Shown here: positions 6,990 through 18,012 of the stretch, piece after piece
Position numbering within the stretch: position 1 is the stretch's first letter
Layout of the letters: each line of letters opens with the position of its first letter
Source: an uncultured Clostridia bacterium
Lineage (GTDB): Bacteria > Bacillota > Clostridia > Christensenellales > Borkfalkiaceae
Direction: 5' to 3'
NCBI GenBank assembly: GCA_947631005.1
Contig: CANRJR010000002.1
Coordinates: forward strand, 1 to 64,000
DNA length: 64,000 nucleotides
Translations under genes and position numbers: made by a program
Notes under the pieces: generated by a model
What the model saw: the letters and a program-made list of their open reading frames with translations, nothing else
Told to the model about the DNA's origin: nothing
The model's database searches: none

Positions 6990-9900
6990 ATGAAAAAACG
7001 GCTGTATATGATATTGACGGTTGCGGCGGGGGCGATGCTCGCGTGCGGGATCCTTGCGGGGTGTTCGTCAAAGGAGAGCGCGTGTGCGAAAGGTCACACA
7101 TGGGCGGACACGCAAGTTGTGACCGCGGCGACCTGCGAAAGCGGCGGGTCTGTTTTGCAGACTTGTACGGTCTGCGGAGCAACGCAGACGGTGGAGACCG
7201 CACCCGCAGGACATCAGTATGCGGTGGCGACGACGATCGAACCGACCTGCACGACGGACGGCGTGATCCGTTCGGTGTGCTCGGTCTGCGGCGACATGCG
7301 TCAACAGACGCTCGAAAAGCTCGGGCATCAAACGCGAAAGATTGCGGGAGTCGCACCGACCTGTACGGCAGACGGTTATACCGACGAGACCGTATGCGAC
7401 AGGTGCAATGAAGTGATAGAGGCAAAAACGGTTTTACCAAAGACGGCGCACACCTACGAACGCGGCGTCTGTTCCGCGTGCGGCGCGGAGAAACAGCTCA
7501 CGGCGAAATTCCTTGCGGGGAACGATACGGTCAAAGAGATCTCCTTTACCGTGAGCACCAAAGACGCGGTGCTTGCGCAAGCACCCGCCGTCCCTGCGCG
7601 CGACGGGTATGAAAACGGGCGTTGGGAGGAGTACAGCATCGGCTGGGAGGACGTGACGATCCACGCGATCTATGATATTGTCCACTATACGATCACCTAT
7701 CAAGACAGCAAAAACGCGCCGAATCAGAATCCCGCAGAGTACACCGTGGAGCAGGCGGTCGAGTTTACCTCGCCCGAACTGACGGGATACAAGTTCGAGG
7801 GATGGTATTCGGACGGGGAAAAGATCGACCGCATTCCCGTGGGGACGATGGGCAACTATACGCTCGAAGCGCGTTGGTCGCCCGTGCGGTATTCCATTAC
7901 CTACGAGGGGGTCGATCCCAAAGCCTTCGATCTTCCCGAGGAGTACACCGTGGAACAGGCAGTCGCGTTGCCCGCAAATATTGAGGTGCGGGGGCGCACA
8001 TTCCTCGGATGGGAGGCGGACGGGCAGGCGATATTGTCCATCCCGCGGGGGTCGTACGGCGATAAGACGATCCACGCGACATTCGACGTCATCCGTTATA
8101 CGATCACCTATCAAGACGACAAACACGCGCCGAATCAGAATCCCGCAGAGTACACCGTGGAACAGGCGGTCGAGTTCACCTCGCCCGAACTTATCGGGTA
8201 CAAGTTCGAGGGTTGGTATTCGGGCGGAGAAAAGATAGAGCGCATCCCCGCGGGGACGATCGGCAACTATACGCTCGAAGCGCGTTGGTCGCTCGTGCGG
8301 TATTCCATTACATATGAGGGAGTCGACCCCGATGCGCTCGGGCTTCCCGCGGAGTACACCATTGAATCGGAAGTCGCGCTGCCCGAAGATCTGGGGGAGA
8401 AAGGGCGCGAGTTCCTCGGTTGGGAAGCAAACGGCAGAACGGTGAATTCCATTCCCAGAGGCTCGCACGGCGATGTGACGCTTCGTGCGCGGTTCAAGGC
8501 GGTCACGTTCCGCGTGACGCTCGACGCGGCGGGCGGGAATGCCGCAAAGGCGTTCGTCTATGTGGGCTATGCGGAGAAATACAACCTGCCCGTGCCCGAG
8601 CGCGAGGGATACGATTTCCTCGGCTGGTACACCAATTCGGGTGCGTCGGGAACGCCTTGCACGGACGCAGAGGGCGCAAGTCTCGGAACGTATTTGCAAT
8701 ATTCCGACAAGGTGTTTTATGCGCATTGGGCGAGCAAGACCCTCCTCGTGACGTACGACAGCCAAGGCGGCGAACCCGTTGCGGAAAAGACGTATCGGTA
8801 CGGCGACCCGTTTATTCCCGCGGAGACGGATAACGAAAACGGCTATCTGCTCGACGGCTGGTTCAACGCCGACGGGACGGTGAAATATACCGAAGCGACC
8901 CCCGTTACGGAAAACATGACGGTTTACGCCCATTGGATCGAGAGCATTCCCGTCTCCACGAAAGAGGGGCTGTTGGCGATTGCGCAGAACCCGTCCGCAA
9001 ACTATCATCTCACGCGGGATATCAATTTGGGCGGCATTGTATGGACGCCCATAGAGGAATTTTCTGGGATCTTGAACGGCAACGGATATTCCATCATCAG
9101 CATCATTTTGAATTGCACGGGCGACGCCGAAAAGTTCGGATTCATCTTGACGAATCGGGGACGCATTGAAAATCTCACGATGAAAGATGTCATCTATTCG
9201 GTCGCGCTTAACGAACCCCAACAGGGGATGAACGGAGGGATTTTCGCCGCAGTGAATGAGGGCTCGATCTGCGGCTGCAAAGTTGAAGTCGGCTCGTTCC
9301 ATGTATCGTTTTACAGGCATGCGGAAGGCGGTAGTATCACTTTCAATCTGAACTACGGAGAGATCGCGGGCTACAATGCCGAGGGTGCGCTCATTGAGAA
9401 TTGTCGCACGGGCATCGACATCGTTGCGTCGATCGACGTGCGCGGGAGCGGCGACAACTCGCATTCCAAGGATATGAGATTGTATATCGGCGGCATTGTC
9501 GGCAATAACGCGGGCACGACGACAAATTGCGAATGCTCGGCGAAGATCGACAGCACCAACATTGCGAGTGGCTATTCCACCCATTGGGGATCGGGTCATG
9601 AGGTGGGCATTGCGCGCCCGTATATCGGCGGGATCGCGGGATTCACCGACGGCGTAGGAAAAATCACAAAATGCTACGCGACCGTCGGGATTACGATCGT
9701 TTCGACAAGTCAGGCGGTAGAAGGACAAATTTACACCCATGCGGGCGGAATATGCGGCGAATTGAGCGGAAAAGAAAGCAGCATCGATTCGTGCTATTCT
9801 TACGGTACGATCTCGGGCGGCGGGTACAATCAAACGTATTTCGGCGGGCTCGTCGGGTACGTCCTCGCGGAGGCGATGCTCACGAGCAGTTATTCGCATG

Positions 9901-12038
9901 TCTCCATTTCGGCGAACATCGTCGGCGAATACGGCGGGCTGGTCGGGAGGAACGAAGCGATCGTCCGCAACTGCTATGCGACGGGAAACGTCTCCTGCAC
10001 GAGCACGGACGCCAACACCTGTCTCGGCGGTTTCGTCGGACACGGTTCTGCGTCGAGCAACATCTCCATGTGCTATTCCACGGGGAACGTGAGCGCAAAG
10101 GGCGGCAATACGGGATACTTCATCGGGCTCAACGACCTCGGCGGCTCGGTGTATAAGGTTTACTATTTGAGCGGGGCGACCGTCGAGCTCAACGGCACGG
10201 TCCTCAATCAGGTCACCGAATTCGGCGTCGCGTCCAAGCAGCTCGGCGAGCTTTGGAGCGAAGAATTTCTCGTGTCCGAACTCTATTGGGACGCGGAGGG
10301 GTGGATCATCCTCTTCGACGAAGATCCCATTCTCGATTGGGAGACCTCGGTCAGCCACAGCTACGAGACCTATGTCGTCGAGCCCACCTGTGAGGATTTC
10401 GGATATACCGTTTACGTCTGCCGCGATTGCAACCGCATTTTCGTCCGCGGCTACACCGTGCCGCTCGGGCATGATTACGATTACGATGATCCCGTCGTGC
10501 ACGATCGCACCTGCGAGGACGACGGGCATACCTATTACCGTTGCCGCAACGAGGAAGAGGACATCCTGCACGACAGCGGATTGGTCGATCCCGCACAGGG
10601 GCACATAAAAGGGAAGATCGAAGAACAGCAGGATGCGACCTGTACCGAAGAGGGCTTCGTGCGCTACCTCTGCACCGTATGCGGGGAGGAGGTCATTGAA
10701 ACGATCGCGCCCAAAGGGCACACTTTGCCCGCGACGGGCGACGACGGCAATGCGACGGAGGGATCTTGTTCCAAGGACGGCGATGTCGTCATGGGACATA
10801 CGGCGCGCGTCACCTGTACGGTATGTCATGAAGTCATCCGCGAGAGCGAGGATGTTTCGCCTCACAAATACACGGTTGTGGAGGAGGGGAGCAGCAAAGC
10901 GACCTGCCTCACCGACGGGAAAGAGATCCGCAAGTGCGTCATCTGCGGGCATGTGGAGGAGATCGTGCTTCCCGCGACGGGACACACCGTCCTCGAGGGA
11001 ACGGCGCGGTGCGTGGTCTGTCAGCAATTTGTCATCGACGAAAAGCAGATCGTCGAGATCAAGAACGTGCAAGATCTCAAAAATATCACCCTCAATCCCG
11101 CGGGGATCTATATGCTCAAAGCCAATATCGACCTGCAAGGCGAAGATTGGATCCCGCTCGGCACGGAGCAGTCTCCTTTCACGGGCTGGCTGTTCGGGAA
11201 CGGCTTCAAGATCTCCAATCTCACCGTCACAGGCAAGAAGTACGGCGGGCTGTTCGCTTTCAACGAGGGTCGCCTCGTCGGGCTTACCGTCGAAAACGCC
11301 ACTCTCATAGCGGAGAACGTCGGCGGGGCGACGCTCGGCACGTTCGCTGCGGTCAACCGCGGTTCGATCCTGAATTGCACGCTCGAAGGCGATGTGTTCT
11401 TGAAACTCTCGATCGCCCGCGTCGTGGACGATTTCAACGCCCATTTCGAAGATTACGCGGGTTATGCGGGCGGCTTCGCGGGCGAAAACGCCTCCCGCGG
11501 CGAGATCTCCAAGTGCAACATGGACGCGTCTATCGTGTTCACGCTCACGCACAGTATGCAGAATACGGCGCAGGTCGATTGGAGATATTACGTCTTGAAA
11601 ATGTGGAAGCGCGACTATGCGATCTCCCTTGCTTCCTTCTACGCGGGCGGTATCGCGGGGATCAACCGCGGGGTCATCGCGTCGTGCGGAGCGTTGGGTT
11701 CGACCTATGTGCAGAACGTGCAAAAGCTCGACATCCGTCACAGCGGCACGCTCCCCACCCTCCTCGGCGAAAAACAATACTTCTACAACGCAGGGTTCGG
11801 AACGCTCACCACCGACATCTATGCGGGCAGTCTCGCGGGGTACAACGTCAATACCGTACGCGAATCCTCCGCGCGCCGTATCGCGTTCGAACAGGCGGAC
11901 GGCGTCACCTCCTCCGAAGGGTTGCTCTTCGGCATGACTATGGAGATGAAAACGCAGTGGGGAATGGATAACGGCTACGGCGCGCTCGTCGGCGCAAACG
12001 CCACCGAAGGCATTTGCGACAACCTCGTCGTCTATTGA
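6990..12038 (+). CDS. Giant surface lipoprotein with CxxC, InlB-like and GLUG repeats
   Basis: This 1682-residue protein starts with a lipoprotein signal peptide: basic MKKR, a hydrophobic core, and the lipobox ILAGC with the lipidated cysteine at 25. Next come CxxC-containing repeats of roughly 40 residues (about 30-170), a run of beta-grasp repeats of the InlB/Listeria-Bacteroides type with GYKFEGWY-like motifs (about 180-650), a GLUG-like stretch rich in GGIVG and GGLVG motifs (about 660-1110), a second CxxC block (about 1130-1340) and a second GLUG-like region to the end. An almost identical 137-residue unit is duplicated in tandem (from residues 233 and 370). Adhesion or matrix binding at the cell surface is likely by family; the ligand is unknown. 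It is transcribed alone from its own promoter and flanked on both sides by repeat clusters. Confidence 0.88.
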   Translation: MKKRLYMILTVAAGAMLACGILAGCSSKESACAKGHTWADTQVVTAATCESGGSVLQTCTVCGATQTVETAPAGHQYAVATTIEPTCTTDGVIRSVCSVCGDMRQQTLEKLGHQTRKIAGVAPTCTADGYTDETVCDRCNEVIEAKTVLPKTAHTYERGVCSACGAEKQLTAKFLAGNDTVKEISFTVSTKDAVLAQAPAVPARDGYENGRWEEYSIGWEDVTIHAIYDIVHYTITYQDSKNAPNQNPAEYTVEQAVEFTSPELTGYKFEGWYSDGEKIDRIPVGTMGNYTLEARWSPVRYSITYEGVDPKAFDLPEEYTVEQAVALPANIEVRGRTFLGWEADGQAILSIPRGSYGDKTIHATFDVIRYTITYQDDKHAPNQNPAEYTVEQAVEFTSPELIGYKFEGWYSGGEKIERIPAGTIGNYTLEARWSLVRYSITYEGVDPDALGLPAEYTIESEVALPEDLGEKGREFLGWEANGRTVNSIPRGSHGDVTLRARFKAVTFRVTLDAAGGNAAKAFVYVGYAEKYNLPVPEREGYDFLGWYTNSGASGTPCTDAEGASLGTYLQYSDKVFYAHWASKTLLVTYDSQGGEPVAEKTYRYGDPFIPAETDNENGYLLDGWFNADGTVKYTEATPVTENMTVYAHWIESIPVSTKEGLLAIAQNPSANYHLTRDINLGGIVWTPIEEFSGILNGNGYSIISIILNCTGDAEKFGFILTNRGRIENLTMKDVIYSVALNEPQQGMNGGIFAAVNEGSICGCKVEVGSFHVSFYRHAEGGSITFNLNYGEIAGYNAEGALIENCRTGIDIVASIDVRGSGDNSHSKDMRLYIGGIVGNNAGTTTNCECSAKIDSTNIASGYSTHWGSGHEVGIARPYIGGIAGFTDGVGKITKCYATVGITIVSTSQAVEGQIYTHAGGICGELSGKESSIDSCYSYGTISGGGYNQTYFGGLVGYVLAEAMLTSSYSHVSISANIVGEYGGLVGRNEAIVRNCYATGNVSCTSTDANTCLGGFVGHGSASSNISMCYSTGNVSAKGGNTGYFIGLNDLGGSVYKVYYLSGATVELNGTVLNQVTEFGVASKQLGELWSEEFLVSELYWDAEGWIILFDEDPILDWETSVSHSYETYVVEPTCEDFGYTVYVCRDCNRIFVRGYTVPLGHDYDYDDPVVHDRTCEDDGHTYYRCRNEEEDILHDSGLVDPAQGHIKGKIEEQQDATCTEEGFVRYLCTVCGEEVIETIAPKGHTLPATGDDGNATEGSCSKDGDVVMGHTARVTCTVCHEVIRESEDVSPHKYTVVEEGSSKATCLTDGKEIRKCVICGHVEEIVLPATGHTVLEGTARCVVCQQFVIDEKQIVEIKNVQDLKNITLNPAGIYMLKANIDLQGEDWIPLGTEQSPFTGWLFGNGFKISNLTVTGKKYGGLFAFNEGRLVGLTVENATLIAENVGGATLGTFAAVNRGSILNCTLEGDVFLKLSIARVVDDFNAHFEDYAGYAGGFAGENASRGEISKCNMDASIVFTLTHSMQNTAQVDWRYYVLKMWKRDYAISLASFYAGGIAGINRGVIASCGALGSTYVQNVQKLDIRHSGTLPTLLGEKQYFYNAGFGTLTTDIYAGSLAGYNVNTVRESSARRIAFEQADGVTSSEGLLFGMTMEMKTQWGMDNGYGALVGANATEGICDNLVVY

Positions 12039-13473: not shown

Positions 13474-14382
13474 ATGGAATTTACGGCAAAAGACGTGATG
13501 AAGCTCCGCGAACAGACGGGCGCGGGCATGATGGACTGCAAGCGCGCCCTCGTGGACGCGGACGGCGATTTTGAAAAAGCCGCCGATCTTCTCCGCGAGC
13601 GCGGCATTGCGAAGGCGGCAAAGCGCGCCTCCAAGATCGCGGCGGAGGGCATCGTGTATGCCTACGTCGAGAACTGCACGGGCGTGCTCGTCGAAATCAA
13701 CTGCGAGAGCGACTTCGTCGCCAAGGGCGAGAAGTTCCACGCGCTCGCCGAGACCGTCGCCAAGCAGATCGCGAAAACCGCGCCTGCCACGGTCGAGGAA
13801 TTGCTTGAAAGCGACCTCGGCGGCGAGACGGTGAACACCTTCATCCAAGAGCAGGTCGGCATCATCGGCGAGAAGATCTCGGTGCGCCGCTTCACCGCCT
13901 ACAAGTCGCAGGGACTGATCGAGACGTATATCCACATGGGCGGCACGATGGGCGTTATGCTCGACTTCGATTGCCCCGAGACCGCGGCGACCAAGGAGCT
14001 TGCGCACAACGTCGCGCTCCACACGGCGTTCTCCAAGCCCGCCTATCTCACGGCGGCGGAAGTGCCCGCGGAGACGCTCGAAAAGGAAAAGGAGATCTTG
14101 AAGCAGGAAGTGATCAACGAGGGCAAGCCCGAGGCGATCGCCGAAAAGATTGTGCTCGGCAAGATCAAGAAGTTCTACGAAGAGAACTGCCTCCTCGACC
14201 AGAAGTTCGTAAAGGACGACAAGGTGACCATCGCCCAGCTCATCGCGCAGACGGCGAAAGAGGCGGGCGTGCCCGTTGCGTTGAAGCGGTTCGTGTTCTA
14301 TGTCATGGGACAGGGGCTCGAAAAGAAGAGCGAGGATTTGAGCGAGGAAGTCGCCAAGCAAGTCCAAGCGATGAAGAAATAA
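13474..14382 (+). CDS. tsf: Translation elongation factor Ts
   Basis: EF-Ts is the guanine-nucleotide exchange factor for EF-Tu. The 302-residue protein begins with the UBA-like domain carrying the LREQTGAGMMDCKRAL signature, then the core with the ESDFVAKGEKF motif that contacts EF-Tu. Length and order are normal. It follows rpsB with a 3-nt gap and is ended by a clear hairpin terminator at 14388. In many bacteria pyrH and frr come next; here a surface lipoprotein gene and repeats intervene. Confidence 0.98.
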   Translation: MEFTAKDVMKLREQTGAGMMDCKRALVDADGDFEKAADLLRERGIAKAAKRASKIAAEGIVYAYVENCTGVLVEINCESDFVAKGEKFHALAETVAKQIAKTAPATVEELLESDLGGETVNTFIQEQVGIIGEKISVRRFTAYKSQGLIETYIHMGGTMGVMLDFDCPETAATKELAHNVALHTAFSKPAYLTAAEVPAETLEKEKEILKQEVINEGKPEAIAEKIVLGKIKKFYEENCLLDQKFVKDDKVTIAQLIAQTAKEAGVPVALKRFVFYVMGQGLEKKSEDLSEEVAKQVQAMKK

Positions 14383-14387
14383 CCGCG

Positions 14388-14416
14388 ATCCCGTCTGCAA
14401 AGGACGGGATTTTTGT
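14388..14416 (+). terminator. Terminator of rpsB-tsf
   Basis: The 8-bp stem ATCCCGTC (14388-14395) pairs with GACGGGAT (14403-14410) across a 7-nt loop and is followed by TTTTT. It starts 5 nt after the tsf stop codon. Confidence 0.88.
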
Positions 14417-14444: not shown

Positions 14445-14471
14445 TTGACAAGCCGGGGGGGGTAGTATAAT
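14445..14471 (+). promoter_or_regulatory. Promoter with 8-G tract in a short spacer (candidate phase-variable)
   Basis: A perfect TTGACA (14445-14450) and perfect TATAAT (14466-14471) are only 15 bp apart instead of 17. Eight consecutive Gs (14455-14462) occupy most of the spacer. Slippage of two Gs would restore optimal spacing. Promoters of surface antigens controlled this way are known in other bacteria; that this one switches is inference. Confidence 0.8.
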
Positions 14472-14509: not shown

Positions 14510-16804
14510 ATGAAGAGGAAAATTTTCTTGATCTTTTGTACGCTCATCGCGTGCGCCTGTCTGTGCTTGGGTCTCGCCGCTTGCGGCGGCGGCAAGTGCA
14601 AGGCGGGGCATACCTATACCGCAGATAACAAATGCAGCGTCTGCGGTGCGAAATGGAAGTACACCGAGGGGTTGCAGTTCGAGTACACTCCCGACGGATA
14701 CAGCGTAGTCGGGATGGACACGTCGCGCGGCAAGGTCGTCATCCCTTACGGCTACAACGGAAAATCCGTGATCTCGATCGGGGTAGAAGCGTTCAAAGGG
14801 CGCACCTCTCTTACGAGCGTGACGATCCCCGACAGCGTGACGGAGATCGGGAGAAATGCGTTCTATAACTGCGCCTCTCTTACAAGCGTGAAGATCGGGG
14901 ACGGCGTGACCTCAATCGGGAATTGGGCGTTCCGTAATTGCACCTCGCTTACGAGCGTGACGATCGGGGGCAGCGTGACCGAGATTGGAGATTTAGCATT
15001 CAGTGGATGCGAATCTCTCACGAGCGTGACGATCCCCGACAGCGTGACCGAGATTGGGGGGGCGGCGTTTTATAATACAGGATATTATCAAGACGCGTCG
15101 AATTGGACGGGGGACGCGCTCTACATCGGGAAGGATTTGATTGAGGTGAAAGATACGCTTTCGGGTGCGTATAGCATACAACAGGGGACAAAAGTGATTG
15201 CGGATCGGGCGTTCTCTGCTTGCGCCTCTCTTACGAGTGTGACGATTCCCGACAGTGTGACCTCGATTGGAGGTGCGGCGTTCTCCGCTTGCCCCTCTCT
15301 TGCGCGGGTGGATATCACCGACCTTGCGGCGTGGTGTAACATTGATTTCGGTTACTTTAATGCTAACCCGCTCTATCATGCAGAGCATTTGTATTTGAAA
15401 GGTGAAGAGGTGACCGCGCTCACGATCCCCGACGGGGTTACGGAGATCAAACCGTATGCGTTCGCTTATTACACCGCTCTTACGAGCGTGACGATGGGAG
15501 ACGGCTTAACTTCGATCGGGGGGGAGGCATTCTATCATTGCACCTCTCTTGCGAGCGTGACAATTCCAAACAACGTGACCTCGATTGGAGATGAGGCGTT
15601 CCGTAATTGCACTTCTCTTACGAGCATAACGATTCCCGACAGCGTGACCTCGATCGGGTGGTATGCGTTCGCTGATTGCACCGCTCTTACAAGCATGACG
15701 ATCCCCGATTCCGTGGCCGTGATTGGGGAGGGGGTGTTCGCCGATTGCACTTCGCTGGCGAGCGTGACGATCGGGGGCAGCGTGACGGAGATCGGGAGAT
15801 TTGCGTTTTTCGATTGCACCGCGCTTACGCGCGTGACGATTCCCGACAGCGTGATGGTGATAAGGCAGAATGCGTTCTATGGTTGCTATAAACTCATAGA
15901 AGTCTGGAATTATTCGGAATTGTATGTTCATCAAGGAGATGATTCGTACCAGGGCGGCGTTGCGGCATATGCAAAGTATGTTTATACGGTCAACGAAGAG
16001 GGCAAACAGACGGTGACGGACGACGGGTATATCTTCTATGAGGACGGCGAGGAAATTTATCTTCTCGGATATACGGGAAAAGAAACGCAGCTTACCCTGC
16101 CCGCCGCGTCGCCGAGCGGAAAACGGTATGCGATTTATCAGTATGCGTTCAGCGATTGTACCTCTCTTACGGGCATTACGATCCCCGACGGCGTGACCTC
16201 GATCGGGGACGGGGCGTTTAAGGATTGCACCGCTCTTACGGGCGTGACGATCGGGGATGGCGTGACAAAAATCGGGAGAGATACGTTTTCGAATACAGGA
16301 TATTACAATGACGCGTCGAATTGGACGGGGGACGTGCTCTACATCGGGAAGTATTTGATCAAAGCGAAAAATACGCTTTCGGGGGCATATACCGTGCAAC
16401 AGGGGACAAGGGTGATCGCGGGGGATGCGTTCGAGGAGTGCACCGCGCTGACGGGCGTTACGATCCCCGAGGGCGTGGTCTCAGTCGGGGAATATGCGTT
16501 CTATCATTGCGGATCTCTTACGGGCGTTGTAATTCCCGACAGCGTGACCAAGATCGGGGACTATGCGTTCAAGGATTGCACCTCGCTTACGGGCGTGACG
16601 ATCGGGAGCGGCGTAACGGAGATCGGCGTACAGGCGTTTGAGGGTTGCACCGCACTGACGAACATCACATTTAAGGGGACGGTCGCCGATTGGCAACAAG
16701 TGAAAAAAAGAATGTATTGGAATGATGGCACAGGCGATTATACCGTTACTTGCACGGACGGGACGATCGACAAACAGGGGAATGTGACGATGTTTAAGGC
16801 GTAA
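14510..16804 (+). CDS. BspA-type leucine-rich-repeat surface lipoprotein
   Basis: The 764-residue protein has a lipoprotein signal peptide with lipobox LAAC (Cys25). It then carries a short CxxC module (residues 30-47: CKAGHTY ... CSVCG) like those in the large lipoprotein at 6990. The rest is about 20 LRR_5/BspA repeats of 23 residues, built on LTSVTIPDSVTEIG and AFxxCTS, interrupted by two related inserts (NTGYY.DASNWTGD ... YIGK) and one acidic spacer. BspA-type proteins bind host matrix or other bacteria; the ligand here is unknown. At DNA level the repeats are nearly identical, so recombination can change their number. Expression is from the G-tract promoter at 14445, and the gene lies where pyrH usually follows tsf. 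Confidence 0.92.
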   Translation: MKRKIFLIFCTLIACACLCLGLAACGGGKCKAGHTYTADNKCSVCGAKWKYTEGLQFEYTPDGYSVVGMDTSRGKVVIPYGYNGKSVISIGVEAFKGRTSLTSVTIPDSVTEIGRNAFYNCASLTSVKIGDGVTSIGNWAFRNCTSLTSVTIGGSVTEIGDLAFSGCESLTSVTIPDSVTEIGGAAFYNTGYYQDASNWTGDALYIGKDLIEVKDTLSGAYSIQQGTKVIADRAFSACASLTSVTIPDSVTSIGGAAFSACPSLARVDITDLAAWCNIDFGYFNANPLYHAEHLYLKGEEVTALTIPDGVTEIKPYAFAYYTALTSVTMGDGLTSIGGEAFYHCTSLASVTIPNNVTSIGDEAFRNCTSLTSITIPDSVTSIGWYAFADCTALTSMTIPDSVAVIGEGVFADCTSLASVTIGGSVTEIGRFAFFDCTALTRVTIPDSVMVIRQNAFYGCYKLIEVWNYSELYVHQGDDSYQGGVAAYAKYVYTVNEEGKQTVTDDGYIFYEDGEEIYLLGYTGKETQLTLPAASPSGKRYAIYQYAFSDCTSLTGITIPDGVTSIGDGAFKDCTALTGVTIGDGVTKIGRDTFSNTGYYNDASNWTGDVLYIGKYLIKAKNTLSGAYTVQQGTRVIAGDAFEECTALTGVTIPEGVVSVGEYAFYHCGSLTGVVIPDSVTKIGDYAFKDCTSLTGVTIGSGVTEIGVQAFEGCTALTNITFKGTVADWQQVKKRMYWNDGTGDYTVTCTDGTIDKQGNVTMFKA

Positions 16805-17274: not shown

Positions 17275-18012
17275 ATGTCGGACGCCGCAATCGGAAAAAC
17301 GCCCAAATATAAGCGCATTTTGCTCAAACTCTCGGGCGAAGCACTCGCGGGCGAACAGCGGTTCGGGCTCAACGAAGCGGTCATCGCGCAAGTGGTCGAC
17401 CAGCTCGTCAAGGTCCACGAAATGGGGGTGGAGATCGCCCTCGTCATCGGGGGCGGCAACTTTTGGCGGGGACGGCAGGGGACGAATATGGACCGCACCA
17501 CTGCCGACCATATGGGCATGCTCGCCACGGTGATGAACTCCCTCGCGATGATGGACGCCATCGAACAGCGCGGCATTCCCACCCGCGTGCAGACCGCGCT
17601 CAACATGGTCTCCGTCGCCGAGCCCTACATTCTGCGCAAGGCACTCCGCCACTTCGAAAAGGGGCGCATCGTGATCATGGCGTGCGGCACGGGCAACCCG
17701 TACTGCTCGACGGATACGGCGGCGGCGCAACGCGCCTGCGAGATCGACGCCGACGTCTTGCTCATGGCGAAGAACGTCGACGGCATCTACGACAGCGATC
17801 CGCGCGTCAACCCGTCCGCCAAGAAGTACGACCGCATCACCTTTTTCGACGTCGTGTCGGGCGGGCTCAAAGCGATGGACGCGACCGCCGCGACGATGTG
17901 CATGGAGAACGACATCCCCGTGCTCGCTTTCGCGCTCGGCGAACCCGATTCCATCCTCCGCGCCGTATGCGGAGAGCAGATCGGCACGCTCATTTCCAAT
18001 CAACCCAAATAA
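17275..18012 (+). CDS. pyrH: UMP kinase
   Basis: PyrH phosphorylates UMP to UDP, feeding pyrimidine nucleotides and UDP-sugars. The 245-residue protein shows the amino-acid-kinase fold landmarks: KRILLKLSGEAL near the start, the VIGGGNFWRG glycine loop, DRTTADHMGMLATVMN, and the GTGNPYCSTDTAAAQRA segment that contacts nucleotide. A strong ribosome binding site precedes the ATG. It begins the pyrH-frr-uppS-cdsA run. Confidence 0.98.
   Translation: MSDAAIGKTPKYKRILLKLSGEALAGEQRFGLNEAVIAQVVDQLVKVHEMGVEIALVIGGGNFWRGRQGTNMDRTTADHMGMLATVMNSLAMMDAIEQRGIPTRVQTALNMVSVAEPYILRKALRHFEKGRIVIMACGTGNPYCSTDTAAAQRACEIDADVLLMAKNVDGIYDSDPRVNPSAKKYDRITFFDVVSGGLKAMDATAATMCMENDIPVLAFALGEPDSILRAVCGEQIGTLISNQPK

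Follow-up and report, generated by a model that had tools for sequence, protein, structure and literature searches.

The question raised by this locus is whether a run of eight guanines in the promoter of a lipoprotein gene serves as a switch of its transcription. In the window, which denotes the whole 64,000-nucleotide stretch analysed here, the −35 hexamer TTGACA (14445–14450) and the −10 hexamer TATAAT (14466–14471) were read on the forward strand, separated by the 15-bp spacer AGCC-G8-TAG (14451–14465, forward strand). The run of eight Gs at which slippage is proposed occupies positions 14455–14462 of the same strand, and the ATG of the lipoprotein gene follows downstream of the promoter at 14510. 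The earlier note had reported two perfect hexamers and a 15-bp spacer with eight of its bases in a single G run; this description was exact, and so was its arithmetic that two further Gs would give 17 bp.

The proposed switched gene is an open reading frame of 764 residues (14510–16804, forward strand), whose signal peptide ends in LAAC, taken as a lipobox by eye, and whose LRR_5 repeats match PF13306 with an E-value of 6.7e-154. Since LRR_5 repeats and a lipoprotein signal peptide are both present, the product was assigned as a putative BspA-type leucine-rich-repeat (LRR) surface lipoprotein, in line with the repeat-rich surface target proposed beforehand. We infer that this protein and its counterparts in the genus are exposed at the cell surface. 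The 5′ neighbour is tsf, encoding elongation factor Ts (13474–14382, forward strand; PF00889, E-value 2e-65), and is followed by a stem with a T-run (14387–14415, forward strand; −15.8 kcal/mol, z −3.3). This element is likely a terminator parting tsf from the tract promoter; a stem at these positions was absent from the listing of a consensus terminator scan. Downstream lies an open reading frame (17275–18012, forward strand), which, from its protein sequence, we take to be pyrH-like. Among the ten relatives' loci in which the script located the end of tsf, four (L047, L052, L053 and L057) carry a pyrH-like frame 77–216 bp past tsf, and the remaining six have other frames or none 3′ of it. 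One possible reading is that the window lipoprotein gene was inserted between tsf and pyrH. Another large protein of surface type, of 1682 residues with List_Bact repeats and a GLUG motif, is encoded a few kilobases upstream (6990–12038); the sole G8 of the window does not precede it.

Three paralogous LRR lipoprotein genes elsewhere in the genome (C7:43862, C7:51326 and C11:17506) have ordinary promoters, with spacers of 17, 18 and 17 bp, respectively. The second of these is 79% identical to the window sequence from the −10 hexamer through into the signal peptide, so that the window gene carries a tract that a close paralogue lacks at this position. As a separate observation, the 18-bp spacer of this paralogue (C7:51326–51355, locus L253) holds an inverted repeat, ATACAGTTT-C-AAACTGTAT, found by eye and overlapping the −10 hexamer, which is possibly a repressor site.

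The assembly of the genome itself (G000) comprises 2.0 Mb in 75 contigs and contains 117 perfect TTGACA/TATAAT pairs, of which the 100 listed, or 99 without that of the window, were used for spacer counts. A 17-bp spacer was present in 80 of these 99 other promoters listed and a 15-bp spacer in none, which bears out the statement that 17 bp is usual elsewhere. Three perfect pairs are found within the window (spacers of 17, 15 and 17 bp), against 0.01 expected from shuffled sequences. One explanation of the tract is chance, namely that in a GC-rich genome a G run landed in a promoter by coincidence, and a G8 is indeed not rare for this composition (one found in the window versus 2.4 expected from shuffles). 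As the count itself is unsurprising, it is the placement of the tract inside a promoter that matters. In this respect, four of the 11 distinct tracts of at least eight Gs in the assembly are flanked by a TTGACA and a −10-like box in front of a lipoprotein gene, which argues against chance, as does the reversed-pattern control given below. The tract promoters found in this genome thus number four, three with an imperfect −10 hexamer. Near-identical promoters of the form TTGACA-AATGCAC-G8-TAATATATAAG precede three paralogous lipoprotein genes on the short contigs C62 (1249–1279), C63 (3235–3265) and C64 (2929–2959), corresponding to loci L042–L044 and L255–L257; the possible −10 hexamer is either TAATAT, giving a spacer of 15 bp, or TATATA, giving one of 18 bp. 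When the tract length was left free in this pattern, only these three copies were retrieved from the genome, all with G8 (3/3).

The survey was extended to a genus set of 103 genomes, one per species, using the pattern TTGACA-N0–12-G7-N0–12-TATAAT, with the reversed pattern as the control. The tract-promoter pattern was present in 74 of the 103 genomes and the control in none; 29 genomes were devoid of any match. The looser pattern TTGACA-N2–12-G7 matched in 86 of the 103, with its reversed control matching in 11 (once with 13 matches; hand-counted controls). An even sample of the order returned matches in 49 of 296 genomes, against none for the reversed control. Taken with the placement of the G8 tracts in the own assembly, these empty controls make chance placement a scarcely credible account of the promoter. 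Within the order sample, hand counts gave 8/10 genomes for the genus, 3/13 for other genera of the family, 12/21, 13/21 and 6/21 for families f19, f32 and f28, respectively, and 7/210 for all others; beyond the order, the class gave 7/372 matching genomes. With four families rich and the rest of the order and class poor in these samples, tract promoters are a habit of certain clades within the class. A collection-wide scan, which allowed 2–9 bases before the tract and 0–6 after it, yielded at least 118 stretches with 124 sites and revealed tract promoters in other taxa as well. The matches listed include Saccharibacteria, Acholeplasmatales, Anaeroplasma, Faecalibacterium, Borkfalkia, Pumilibacter, Streptobacillus and a Helicobacter; the resulting set contains two or more genomes of the genus, and the window's own genome is perhaps absent from it.

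Two further observations arose from these searches. Genome G008 gave 85 raw matches to TTGACA-N2–12-G7, in which one tract may count repeatedly, and just two with a perfect TATAAT; this excess could reflect either a variant −10 hexamer at many tract promoters or a repeated element. A C7 run behind TTGACA was matched in 24 of 103 genus genomes (for example, G018, G084 and G024) against 12 of 103 for the reversed control (hand count), and given these control matches a C-tract counterpart of the device is no more than possible.

Spacer lengths were tabulated from the genus matches listed, which derive from 55 genomes, after merging copies with identical flanks in one genome. The resulting 127 spacers were distributed as 13 bp (5), 14 bp (4), 15 bp (27), 16 bp (26), 17 bp (9), 18 bp (16), 19 bp (26), 20 bp (10), 21 bp (2), 24 bp (1) and 27 bp (1). 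They lie on both sides of the optimum of 17 bp, which added or lost tract bases would therefore cross. The 81 distinct strings from the rest of the order, from which repeats were removed by hand, included spacers of 15 bp (4), 16 bp (21), 17 bp (8), 18 bp (16) and 19 bp (12). Likewise, the 107 collection-wide sites from host-associated or isolate records, which overlap slightly with the genus, included 15 bp (20), 16 bp (22), 17 bp (8), 18 bp (18) and 19 bp (17). The dip at 17 bp relative to 16 and 18 bp had p values of 0.01 for the genus and 0.016 for the remainder of the order, or 0.0005 when the two were pooled, under an assumption of independent promoters that does not fully hold. We read the consensus genomes as showing mostly off-optimal promoter states, and the avoidance of 17-bp spacers would, if the tracts slip, be the signature of switches that are mostly off.

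The same 127 listed promoters displayed tracts of G9 (71), G8 (24) and G10 (20), with all lengths from 7 to 11 represented, and across the genus matches listed and that of the window the tract began or ended anywhere from 0 to 10 bp from the −35 hexamer and from 0 to 11 bp from the −10 hexamer. Such free placement within the spacer fits a device that acts through length and is unlike a protein-binding site. This bears on a second explanation, according to which the tract is a regulator-binding site or a DNA-structure element, either through A-like poly-G DNA or through spacer twisting as in MerR systems. MerR regulators use spacer twisting at 19-bp spacers, and some of the genus spacers do measure 19 bp. 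The tracts are nonetheless found at any position in the spacer without a dyad, they vary over the full range of 7–11 Gs, and the genes downstream belong to many families, all of which render a regulatory or structural element improbable.

The genes behind the tracts were characterised from the genus matches listed, comprising at least 150 sites, the window's own site not among these. With one G002 copy merged, 149 listed matches and the promoter of the window made up the 150 promoters used for gene and pair statistics; ten of these had no clear open reading frame, which left 140, and removal of 24 same-genome relatives left 116. Among these matches, 71 of 116 genes encode lipoproteins according to a simple lipobox rule and 92 of 116 an N-terminal hydrophobic segment. 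Perfect promoters without a tract preceded lipoprotein genes in two of 33 cases (Fisher p = 5e-9, again assuming promoters to be independent, which they are not fully), this control group being small and drawn largely (28 of 33) from the own genome. The rules for lipobox, hydrophobic segment and open reading frame were home-made and uncalibrated, and the window gene itself was mis-started by the last of these and therefore falls outside the 71. Pfam families among the 116 were the Listeria-Bacteroides repeat (List_Bact, 15), the InlB B-repeat (10), collagen (8), LRR_5 (7), ABC transporter (5) and zinc ribbon (5). LRR relatives of the window protein, with 37–44% identity, lie behind tracts in four more species, with spacers of 16, 15, 13 and 19 bp, and genome G002 carries 15 copies of one promoter form, of which the first five read all precede one lipoprotein family. 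In the collection-wide set, classed by record titles, host-associated or isolate records gave 21/94 lipoproteins and 73/94 N-terminal hydrophobic segments, compared with 1/10 and 2/10, respectively, for environmental or doubtful records; the gene class is less clear here than in the genus.

Differences in tract length between related promoters were then compiled. The orthologous regions of G001 and G076 are 98.5% identical over 827 bp with three gap columns, and their tracts are G8 and G9 within spacers of 16 and 17 bp. A lipoprotein trio from G062, G001 and G076 has spacers of 16, 14 and 15 bp, and two promoters of G030 with the same core flanks have G8 and G9. For between-genome homologous pairs with at least 85% identity over aligned blocks, the G count was unequal in 4/11, and for within-genome pairs it was unequal in 7/63 at this threshold and in 0/16 at 95% or above. 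Eighteen pairs were also hand-picked from the top 40 homologous pairs and scored over 150 bp of flank on each side, and the two counts by identity differ in that one scores aligned blocks only and the other these flanks. Between genomes, hand-picked pairs with approximately 80% or more flank identity differed in spacer length in four of six cases, or at two of four loci if the trio is taken as one. Gap openings in the flanks amount to approximately 0.08 per 16 bp, which yields P = 0.03 for two of four loci being unequal. This excess lends modest support to slippage. No orthologous promoter at the window site was found among the matches listed for the 60 relatives searched. Viral contigs returned no match to the window promoter or to that of C62–C64 with the tract left free; with a looser pattern, the spans among the viral matches listed corresponded mostly to the 17 bp typical of ordinary promoters.

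These comparisons bear most directly on a third explanation, that of fixed promoter tuning, in which the G tract sets a weak but stable promoter through an off-optimal spacer and does not switch on biological time scales. Paralogues do tend to keep one length, with 14 of the 15 G002 copies at G8 and one at G7 when the tract was left free in the pattern, and with the uniform G8 of the three own-genome copies. Mismatch-repair genes are moreover present, with MutS_I in 10/10 sampled genus members and MutL_C in 99/103 genus genomes, including 60/60 good ones, and eight Gs are few for a rapidly switching tract. A weak stable promoter, however, requires no homopolymer, the unequal spacers at two of the four loci stand against the low rate of flank gaps, and the tracts are enriched before surface genes. 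On balance, we consider fixed tuning unlikely, albeit the least so of the three alternatives. The presence of these repair genes also led us to reject loss of mismatch repair as the cause of the tracts, and, together with the equal lengths among paralogues, it fits slow or moderate switching better than very fast switching.

The reading we prefer is that the G8 tract is a slipped-strand phase-variation switch, which would act at the level of transcription on the surface lipoprotein gene; we hold this to be probable, judging from sequence comparison. Replication slippage would add or remove Gs and shift the distance between the −35 and −10 hexamers, and this shift would alter the use of the lipoprotein promoter by RNA polymerase. 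The predicted output is low for G8 (15 bp), intermediate for G9 (16 bp) and high for G10 (17 bp), and low expression is thus a plausible prediction for the sequenced state. The promoter belongs to a genus-wide set found chiefly in front of surface and secreted proteins. The phase-variable promoter suggested in the earlier note has gained from its recurrence in the genus with no reversed-control matches, the enrichment of lipoproteins, the free tract position, the avoidance of 17 bp and the unequal tract lengths of some orthologues, and the switch interpretation may be regarded as well supported by comparison. Weighing against it are the ordinary promoters of the three LRR lipoprotein paralogues in the own genome, the 29 genus genomes devoid of a match and the G count preserved in most close between-genome pairs. 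We infer slippage as the source of the length differences, an effect of these on transcription, and switching within populations. A broader proposal, to which we assign even chances, is a clade-wide promoter phasome, in which several families of one order would run their surface lipoproteome, paralogous families included, through independently slipping G tracts. These would settle mainly one to two bases away from the 17-bp optimum, with few members ON per cell and rare slippage choosing which. On this proposal, the poly-G promoters of host-associated bacteria at large would commonly be encountered with spacers other than 17 bp.

Comparable devices have been described. In Treponema pallidum, tp0126 has a poly-G between the −35 and −10 hexamers and is transcribed best with a 17-bp spacer, and in Neisseria meningitidis the spacer of porA contains a poly-G, and shortening of this spacer from 17 bp abolishes transcription, as stated in the excerpted text of PMC7864442. 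Going by that excerpt, tp0126 shares the geometry found here, with a G tract in the −35/−10 spacer of a surface-protein gene, but it belongs to a spirochaete pathogen, whereas the present tract promoters occur in 74 of 103 species genomes of an uncultured Clostridia genus. The porA promoter likewise has its poly-G in the spacer; the genes behind the tracts described here differ in being mostly lipoproteins, some in paralogous families. For a gut commensal, Bifidobacterium breve, an ON/OFF switch of a pilus by replication slippage is given in the excerpt of PMC9187656. As excerpted, this system resembles the present proposal in the switching of a surface structure by slippage, and it differs in phylum. 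The slippage tract of the pilus study reportedly lies within the coding sequence. Promoter-level phase variation in gut bacteria is further represented by invertible promoters (reference 56 in PMC11868660, as cited in the portion seen), which rely on DNA inversion instead of the homopolymer slippage envisaged here. Within the open-licence literature, as represented by titles and the starts of abstracts, nothing was found on tracts within promoter spacers of gut Clostridia or of the present clade, and the homopolymer-slippage cases retrieved in this material concern mostly pathogens. The kind of mechanism is thus known; what appears to be new is the lineage concerned, together with the scale and the shunning of 17-bp spacers. 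If the tracts slip, a whole uncultured Clostridia lineage would bet on surface-protein variation at the promoter level, and its states would be readable straight from metagenome reads already at hand. The deficit of 17-bp spacers provides a simple, testable signature for which any collection of genomes could be screened.

Two minor observations concern other sites in the own genome. Behind the promoters on C62–C64, inspection by eye revealed TGTCATT-ATA-AATGACA, a perfect 7-3-7 palindrome with the look of an operator. Finally, a G10 on the reverse strand of locus L038 (at the end of contig C30) and a G8 in locus L036 (C15:47381) lie inside open reading frames near apparent signal peptides, where translational phase variation by frameshifting is possible.
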